The notes beneath the pieces are model-generated. The model worked only from the letters and a program-made list of their open reading frames with translations. It did no database searches and was not told the DNA's origin. A program made the position numbers and the translations under genes. DNA of 64,000 bases from Rhodoferax sp. OV413 (GTDB lineage Bacteria > Pseudomonadota > Gammaproteobacteria > Pseudomonadales > Pseudohongiellaceae): NCBI GenBank assembly GCA_943330915.2, contig CALQJO020000001.1, forward strand, positions 48,418-112,417, given 5' to 3'. Numbering within the stretch: position 1 is the stretch's first letter; the number at the start of each line of letters is the position of its first letter. Positions 50,541-52,354 of this stretch are shown here, piece by piece.

Positions 50541-51311
50541 TTAACTATCCTTAAGAAAAAGTGTTACTGGGGCATGGTCAGAAAAAAATTGATCAGTATG
50601 GATAGTGACGTCCACTACTTTGGATGACAGGTCTGGTGTAATCACCGGATAGTCCAGTCGCCATCCCACATTGTTGTTTCGAGCCTGCCCTCTGTTCGAC
50701 CACCAACTGTATTGATCTGGTTGTTGATTGACTAGCCTGAAAGCATCAACGTATCCGGTCTCATAAAACAGCCGGTCAAGCCACGCGCGTTCTTCCGGCA
50801 AAAAACCAGGATTTTTCTGATTAGCTTTCCAGTTTTTCAGATCGACGGCCTTGTGGCACATATTCCAGTCGCCGCAAATAACAAAACTTCGACCGCTGTT
50901 TCTCAAGTGCAGCAGATGCAGATAAAACTTCTCCAGAAACTGTAACTTGATCTGTTGCCGTTCATTACTGCTCGAACCAGATGGCATATACAGCGAAATG
51001 ACACTTAACTGATCAAAATCAGCCTGAAGATACCGGCCTTCGAGGTCTGCGATGTCCCACCCAAAACCTTTGGTTACAAGATCGGGCCTGCGTTTGGAAA
51101 AAATTGCAGTTCCAGAGTAGCCTTTTTTTTCAGCGTCAAAAAAATAACGGTGATAGTTGTCAGGAGAAAAGACTGTATCTGATAACTGAGACTCATGAGC
51201 TTTGGTTTCCTGGAGGCAAAGAACGTCAGGCGATTGCAGTGCCATCCAGTTAAAGAAACCTTTACGGGCTGCTGAGCGTATCCCGTTGCAATTGAGCGAG
51301 CTTATCAGCAT
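50541..51311 (-). CDS. xthA: exodeoxyribonuclease III family AP endonuclease
   Basis: The 256-residue EEP-superfamily nuclease has SSLNCNGIRSAARKGFFNWM at the N-terminus, the metal ligand Glu in LCLQETKAHESQL, GYSGTAIFSKRRPD, FVICGDWNMCHKAVDLKNW, and the C-terminal WRLDYPVITPDL and FSDHAPVTLFL motifs. It cleaves at abasic sites and trims 3' ends in base-excision repair. It is divergent from the small-peptide gene downstream. Confidence 0.93.
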   Translation of the reverse strand: MLISSLNCNGIRSAARKGFFNWMALQSPDVLCLQETKAHESQLSDTVFSPDNYHRYFFDAEKKGYSGTAIFSKRRPDLVTKGFGWDIADLEGRYLQADFDQLSVISLYMPSGSSSNERQQIKLQFLEKFYLHLLHLRNSGRSFVICGDWNMCHKAVDLKNWKANQKNPGFLPEERAWLDRLFYETGYVDAFRLVNQQPDQYSWWSNRGQARNNNVGWRLDYPVITPDLSSKVVDVTIHTDQFFSDHAPVTLFLKDS

Positions 51312-51347
51312 TTTTATTGATGACTCTATTTCAGGATTGCCAAAAAT

Positions 51348-51478
51348 TGTTACCTAGCGATGTTGTTCAAGGTTTGCGTGGGTTGTTTTGGATCGTTTTG
51401 TCGTAATAATGTTACTTTTTATCGTCTAATTGTGCATTTCTGAAAATAAGTGTTACCTTTATGCCCGTGTAGTGTTAC
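51348..51478 (+). repeat. four TGTTAC direct repeats in the xthA/peptide intergenic region
   Basis: TGTTAC occurs at 51348, 51410, 51451 and 51473, with GTTAC again at 51489. The intervals of 62, 41 and 22 bases are close to 6, 4 and 2 helical turns, so all sites would lie on one DNA face. This looks like a binding-site array for a regulator of the peptide gene or of xthA. Nothing else was found in 51312-51561. Confidence 0.4.
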
Positions 51479-51561
51479 GATGCGCAGCGTTACCGAGGCC
51501 CACAAAGCTTTGTGTATCAACCAAGCCAAGAATACGTTTAAAACCCACAAGGAGATAGAAC

Positions 51562-51663
51562 ATGAGCGAATTAATCATCAGTGCAAGAGCTGCACTTGTC
51601 ACAGCAGCAATCGTAACAGCATCAGTCGCTGTACCAGTGTTGACCATATTGGCAGCCAATTAA
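51562..51663 (+). CDS. 33-residue single-helix membrane peptide (unannotated small gene)
   Basis: The ORF is too short for the track. ATG 51562 has AAGGAG seven bases upstream, the strongest Shine-Dalgarno in this interval. The peptide starts MSELIISARA and continues as a hydrophobic Ala/Val/Leu/Ile/Thr helix (about residues 8-31) ending LTILAAN, with no Lys and one Arg. I do not recognise a family. It has its own 530-bp interval between xthA and moaB, a hairpin 12 bases after the stop (GCAAGCCT/AGGCTTGC, 51676-51702) and a strong terminator at 51806. A membrane-acting small protein or toxin-like peptide are possibilities only. Confidence 0.6.
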   Translation: MSELIISARAALVTAAIVTASVAVPVLTILAAN

Positions 51664-51805
51664 TTCTTTGACCTCGCAAGCCTGATCTTTTGAGAGGCTT
51701 GCTGTCTGAAATCGGGTAGTCGCTTGACGATACCCCGATCCGGGGCGTAATGATCAGTAACACTGCATTGGCCTTGAGTTTTTAATCCCCGCACAGATGG
51801 TTCAT

Positions 51806-51848
51806 TTCAGCCTCGCCAGATTGATTTGGCGAGGCTGAAGTTTTCTAT
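51806..51848 (+). terminator. intrinsic terminator after the small-peptide gene
   Basis: TTCAGCCTCGCCA and TGGCGAGGCTGAA form a perfect 13-bp stem with an 8-nt loop, followed on the plus strand by GTTTTCTATTC. It lies 140 bases past the peptide stop and touches the moaB 3' end from the other strand. The minus strand lacks a T-tract here. Confidence 0.8.
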
Positions 51849-52354
51849 TCTAGCTTTTTAAGCTTGTCGACAAAATTGCAGGGTTTATGTCGGCTATCCA
51901 GTTGGTGGGAAATGATACCTTCCCAGGCCGTTCTGCAAGCACCAGTTGAACCCGGAACACAGAAAACAATCGTCTGGTTACTCAAGCCTGCAAAGGCTCT
52001 GGACTGAATAGTTGAACTGCCGATCTCTGCATGCGACAGATAACGGAATGTTTCACCAAATCCGTCAATACTCGAGTCAAGCAAAGGCGTTACAGATCTG
52101 ACTGTGTTATCGCGATGCGTAAAACCTGTACCGCCCGTTAATAGGATCGCTTGAACCTGATCATTGGCCACACACGTTGCAACCAGAGCACGAAGCTTGT
52201 AGGTATCGTCTTTGACAATATACTTGTTGACTACTATGTGTCCTGCCGCAAGCAATTGCTCAACTAGGTATCTACCGGAGCTGTCCGTCTCCTCCGTGCG
52301 GGTATCGGATACAGTTATAACCACCGCGTTTACTGGGATGAATCCATTACTCAT
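51845..52354 (-). CDS. moaB: molybdenum cofactor biosynthesis protein B
   Basis: The 169-residue MoaB/Mog fold protein has VVITVSDTRTEETDSSGRYLVEQL (about 11-34), the catalytic AILLTGGTGFTHRDNTVRSVTPLLD and FRYLSHAEIGSSTIQSRAFAG. MoaB/Mog proteins adenylylate molybdopterin; the exact step for MoaB varies. It follows moaA by nine bases. No other moa or moe genes are present. Confidence 0.94.
   Translation of the reverse strand: MSNGFIPVNAVVITVSDTRTEETDSSGRYLVEQLLAAGHIVVNKYIVKDDTYKLRALVATCVANDQVQAILLTGGTGFTHRDNTVRSVTPLLDSSIDGFGETFRYLSHAEIGSSTIQSRAFAGLSNQTIVFCVPGSTGACRTAWEGIISHQLDSRHKPCNFVDKLKKLE

Follow-up and report, generated by a model that had tools for sequence, protein, structure and literature searches.

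The window (the whole 64,000-nt stretch of DNA that was analysed) contains a small gene, ORF1, on the forward strand between xthA and moaB, both of which are encoded on the opposite strand (Table 1). An earlier note on this DNA had pointed out its ribosome-binding site (RBS), the 33-codon frame, an 8-bp hairpin, a CCCCG/CGGGG hairpin and a 13-bp terminator, and we confirmed all of them where the note had put them. Its estimate of an RNA of ∼300 nt is corrected here to about 355–360 nt on account of the predicted start site. The promoter boxes, a second short ORF (ORF2) and the conservation of the locus were absent from that description. The RNA from 51480 to 51850 folds with a z-score of −3.4 relative to dinucleotide shuffles.

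Table 1. Features of the xthA–moaB intergenic locus and its flanks, in window coordinates.
Feature	Position	Strand	Remarks
xthA (exodeoxyribonuclease III)	50541..51311	−	divergent neighbour of ORF1
Distal TGTTAC box	51348..51353	+	GTTAC density in 51312–51561
Upstream TGTTAC box	51410..51415	+	∼40 bp before the −35 box; conserved in genus alignment; upstream GTTAC in 60/94 family promoters
TGTTAC box over −35 region	51451..51456	+	family promoter pattern
Extended −10 TGTTACGAT	51473..51481	+	TG + TACGAT (51476–51481); kept in all peptide-only genus loci
GC-rich discriminator GCGCAGC	51482..51488	+	start site predicted about 51488–51489
5′ stem-loop	51491..51516	+	predicted fold; stem common in family leaders
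RBS AAGGAG	51549..51554	+	7 nt upstream of ATG at 51562; kept in 14/14 genus loci
ORF1, 33 codons, MSELIISARAALVTAAIVTASVAVPVLTILAAN	51562..51663	+	33-aa single-pass membrane protein (conservation, selection, hydropathy, AlphaFold2)
Hairpin H1, GCAAGCCT/AGGCTTGC	51676..51702	+	perfect 8 bp; 12 nt past ORF1 stop
Hairpin H2, ATCGGG/CCCGAT	51711..51739	+	shares 51734–51737 with H3
Hairpin H3, CCCCG-ATC-CGGGG	51733..51745	+	would cover the GGGG ahead of ORF2
ORF2, 11 codons, MISNTALALSF	51750..51785	+	same frame in five Pseudohongiella genomes; putatively translated
Rho-independent terminator and U-rich tract	51804..51849	+	hairpin 51804–51841: 13-bp core without mismatch; 17 pairs counting G-U
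moaB	51845..52354	−	convergent neighbour of ORF1

The close relatives of the window genome are Pseudohongiella species. The ORF1 peptide is present in 14 of 15 Pseudohongiella genomes with 84–100% identity, at the same locus each time and always with AAGGAG; the sole genome without a peptide match is 72% complete. The peptide is 100% identical between Pseudohongiella species in which the identity of xthA falls to 77% and that of moaB to 86–87%. Codon-based counts give dN/dS values of 0.063, 0.078 and 0.136 for ORF1 in genera g1, g5 and g4, respectively, and of about 0.9 or more for shifted frames of the same DNA. The low dN/dS and the conservation rule out a chance ORF. Strong support for the small membrane protein suggested by the earlier note comes from the purifying selection, constant length and hydropathy of the peptide and from the conservation of its RBS and locus; we regard it as nearly certain that 51562–51663 is a real, family-wide gene for such a protein.

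A profile built from 25 members and run on 136 genomes of the family found a match in 118 of them, including 85/92 of the better genomes, in single copy with one exception. The promoter pattern TGTTAC-N15-18-TGTTACNAT, searched in 137 family genomes with the reversed pattern as a control, matches 104, almost always once each, and the control far fewer. The pattern is followed, in nearly all cases, by a short ORF for a membrane peptide, which runs convergently to moaB. The homologues are 33–44 aa long: 33 in g1 and g5, 37 in g4 (for example MSKALKKARPIVEATLVSVALVAAALAVPAAIVYAAI, compared with which the g1/g5 form is four residues shorter), 34–38 in g2 and g8, and 38–44 in g3. Since the gene is near-universal, occurs once per genome in the same place and is preceded by the same unusual promoter, it is probably a core component of the cell rather than a stray toxin.

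We re-examined 12 family genomes scored as lacking the gene. Four of them carry moaB, and three of these four have the promoter and a divergent ORF, while in the fourth the contig stops inside moaB. The remaining eight (G133, G095, G129, G020, G087, G153, G061 and G006) lack a moaB match as well as the small gene, so that their locus is either lost or unassembled. Loss of the ORF between persisting flanks, which the earlier note had named as a sign against the gene, was thus not what the negative scores meant: the intact loci among them held divergent copies. Some individual loci deviate from the common layout. In G121 a second copy (L146) keeps the promoter and has a decayed ORF, and may be MAG contamination; the second copy in G083 (L248) is an ORF without the promoter; and ORF1 of L167 (G111) is apparently broken by an extra C in a homopolymer, likely an assembly error.

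Outside the family, the profile gave only weak, unconvincing matches over 195 genomes of the order and 321 of the class, the best of them inside long ORFs. The viral contigs of IMG/VR contain no relative, and we dropped the idea of spread on viruses on these grounds. Neither Pfam, NCBIfam and PADLOC nor the PDB chains returned a significant match to the peptide family, and we found no literature on small proteins in Pseudohongiella. Judged by the libraries and papers searched, this appears to be a previously unnamed family of small single-pass membrane proteins; the peptide may be on record as an unlabelled 'hypothetical protein'. With 33–44 aa, a single copy per genome across a marine bacterial family and no entry in Pfam or NCBIfam, it is a clear example of a core gene that the usual libraries miss for its shortness.

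The maximal Kyte–Doolittle hydropathy over 19 residues is 2.32 for ORF1 and at least 1.87 for all 81 distinct homologues. The peptide has the size (<∼50 aa) and the one hydrophobic helix of a small single-pass membrane protein, and AlphaFold2 predicts a single helix over residues 3–32 with a pLDDT of 94.7. A proline is present in 81/81 distinct sequences and is followed by 8 or 9 residues in 79 of them; a divergent member outside this set (G058), read by eye, apparently lacks it. The C-terminal helix is charge-free: only one of the 81 sequences has a charged residue within its last 20 positions. By the positive-inside rule, the many lysines at the start of the g4 form hint at a cytoplasmic N-terminus.

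The region upstream of ORF1 is the densest place for GTTAC in the whole window: five copies between 51312 and 51561 (at 51349, 51411, 51452, 51474 and 51489) amount to 20 per kb, versus 0.8 per kb window-wide. The invariant TGTTACnAT, which is TGTTACYAT in most members of the family, reads as an extended −10 element and is preceded, across a spacer of 15–17 nt, by a further TGTTAC. Because the promoter pattern search selects its own boxes, we re-judged box conservation on loci found by the peptide alone. All such loci of g1 and g5 have the TGTTAC boxes, and most other loci have them in slightly altered form. Given the poor −35 region, a putative activator acting on the TGTTAC boxes is plausible. 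The RstA box TACATNTNGTTACA includes GTTACA (PMC4117788), as do proposed OmpR boxes (PMC9861516), which gives them a likeness to the boxes found here; the spacing, however, is mostly 21–23 and ∼40 bp here, whereas the usual tandem spacing of OmpR/RstA-type boxes is ∼10 bp. In g2 and g8 (L070, L073, L076–L080) an inverted copy in the promoter spacer forms palindromes resembling TGTTACC-N5-6-GGTAACA. A regulon defined by the palindrome TGTTACC-N-GGTAACA was rejected: the motif lies inside this promoter in two genera and otherwise yields scattered single matches, with no common regulon.

Downstream of the −10 element, the consensus discriminator of 94 family promoters starts with CGC (80–83%), followed by CC and GTT. 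Comparable discriminators are seen in the genus's own rRNA promoters, CATAAT-GCGCGCCC and TATAAT-ACGCGGCC. The promoter has the GC-rich discriminator expected under growth-rate (ppGpp) control. The rRNA operons of the genus (L254–L263) have two promoters with GC-rich discriminators. Of 93 family leaders, 64 begin with a 5′-terminal stem of at least 4 bp, where shuffles would lead one to expect 32. The stems have 54 different sequences, an indication that the 5′ structure is conserved.

Unlike ORF1 and the promoter, the structured region 3′ of ORF1 differs from genus to genus. In the window, H2 and H3 are mutually exclusive because they have bases 51734–51737 in common, and ORF2 has a weak GGGG RBS, which H3 would cover. 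In g4, the largest genus (loci L121–L173), a second ORF of 10–12 codons lies ∼20 nt past ORF1; it has an ATG start and an RBS enclosed in a hairpin. In 33/34 loci the stop codon of this ORF2 falls 0–2 nt short of the terminator stem, even though its ATG lies anywhere from 34 to 39 nt away from that stem; the other two frames have no such stop placement. The dN/dS of the g4 ORF2 is about 0.9, which rules it out as a constrained peptide, and its translation, if any, therefore matters by position. The Pseudohongiella ORF2 has a dN/dS of 0.39 over four genomes, too few to judge. The stop-abuts-stem rule of g4 fails in the window, where the ORF2 stop sits 18 nt before the terminator, and in g5 and part of g1 the second ORF extends into the terminator hairpin. 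We tentatively suggest, as a possible but doubtful reading, a core gene of two ORFs, with ORF1 encoding the membrane subunit and ORF2 being an unconstrained micro-ORF that would place the ribosome's end at the terminator hairpin, controlling termination or mRNA stability. The ORF2–terminator arrangement of the relatives is the most unusual part of the locus; if ORF2 is indeed translated for its position alone, it would represent an unusual coupling of translation to transcription termination.

The motif ACCCG-N2-4-GGAYGG stands just before the terminator in the Pseudohongiella loci (L001–L014), in different reading frames; its position corresponds to 51786–51803 in the window, where it is degenerate, as it is in the nearest relative. 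Loci of g2, g3 and g8 (L070–L080 and L114–L118) have no second ORF and carry C-rich stretches (CCCCCC) in their 3′ UTRs, possibly sRNA-like loops.

Our proposal as a whole, to which we give somewhat better than even credence, is a core single-pass inner-membrane protein whose proline-bent helix packs on a larger membrane protein, expressed from a growth-linked promoter and followed by an ORF2 that serves by position. ORF1 would be the Pseudohongiella form of this family-wide, putatively inner-membrane protein. Sigma-70 transcription would proceed from the extended −10 with a weak −35, with an activator bound to the TGTTAC boxes and the rRNA-like discriminator providing growth-rate (ppGpp-type) control, so that expression would keep step with growth. 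The short, proline-bent helix may pack against a larger membrane protein and tune or stabilise it, the peptide acting as a small accessory subunit, neither pore nor toxin. Where ORF2 is present, its translation would have a ribosome terminate at the terminator hairpin. Both the partner and the regulator are open to direct tests, thanks to the near-invariant proline and the unique promoter.

The partner packing is modelled on AcrZ, the small single-helix partner of the E. coli AcrB efflux pump. AcrZ is encoded away from its partner, and its helix is bent at a proline. The bend matters for partner binding: a two-hybrid assay showed that the P16A substitution abolishes the interaction with AcrB (PMC7267776). 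The two proteins differ in several respects: we found no sequence similarity between them (no significant Pfam or NCBIfam model match to the peptide), the proline lies near the C-terminus here, and the N-terminus of AcrZ is periplasmic, likely the opposite of the topology suggested by the g4 form.

Taken alone, the strong conservation would also fit an effect of the peptide on the lipid bilayer. The peptide might act on the membrane itself, through a regulated, non-lethal lowering of the proton-motive force, as reported for the 27-aa YohP of E. coli. YohP belongs to the same size class and consists of a single hydrophobic helix; many gammaproteobacteria have it at a conserved locus, and it reduces the membrane potential but does not kill (PMC12719787). 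However, constraint to the level of 100% identity and a near-invariant proline exceed the needs of a generic helix, and with its rRNA-like discriminator the promoter is predicted to be active during growth, in contrast to YohP, which is induced in stationary phase (PMC12719787). We consider this reading unlikely, though it is the main rival of the accessory subunit.

The earlier note had also raised a dual-function RNA, in which the mRNA encodes the protein and its 3′ part acts as, or is processed into, a regulatory RNA. This is compatible with the accessory-subunit proposal and would suit the long, structured 3′ region, the stable fold of the RNA, the frame-independent motif ahead of the terminator in Pseudohongiella and the C-rich stretches that three other genera have in their 3′ UTRs. 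A small protein accompanied by UTR-derived sRNAs is known from CcaF1–CcsR of Rhodobacter, which resembles our locus in having a small protein gene followed by structured RNA, and the C-rich stretches of some genera add to the likeness. CcaF1, on the other hand, is a DUF1127 RNA-binding protein rather than a membrane helix. Whereas ORF1 and the promoter are conserved from genus to genus, the 3′ region is not: its conserved elements, the second ORF and the pre-terminator motif, are genus-specific, and none is common to the whole family. A search of known RNA families gave no Rfam match for the RNA. We give a regulatory role of the 3′ part a low but real probability.

A type I toxin of the Hok, Ldr, Ibs or TisB kind with an antisense antitoxin, as the earlier note had suggested, would share the length class, the hydrophobic peptide and the structured mRNA. 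This suggestion is not supported. The gene is a single-copy core gene, near-universal and syntenic in the family, under strong purifying selection (dN/dS about 0.06–0.14), has no match to known families in Pfam, NCBIfam or PADLOC, and has no viral-contig relative. We found no antisense partner at the locus: the minus strand has one weak promoter-like site, a count no higher than in shuffles, and no antisense Rfam family was found there. A toxin is accordingly very unlikely. A leader peptide or attenuator, which the short ORFs adjoining a terminator might bring to mind, can be given next to no weight: no same-strand gene follows, a leader peptide for moaB is ruled out since moaB is convergent, and ORF1 is constrained as a protein.
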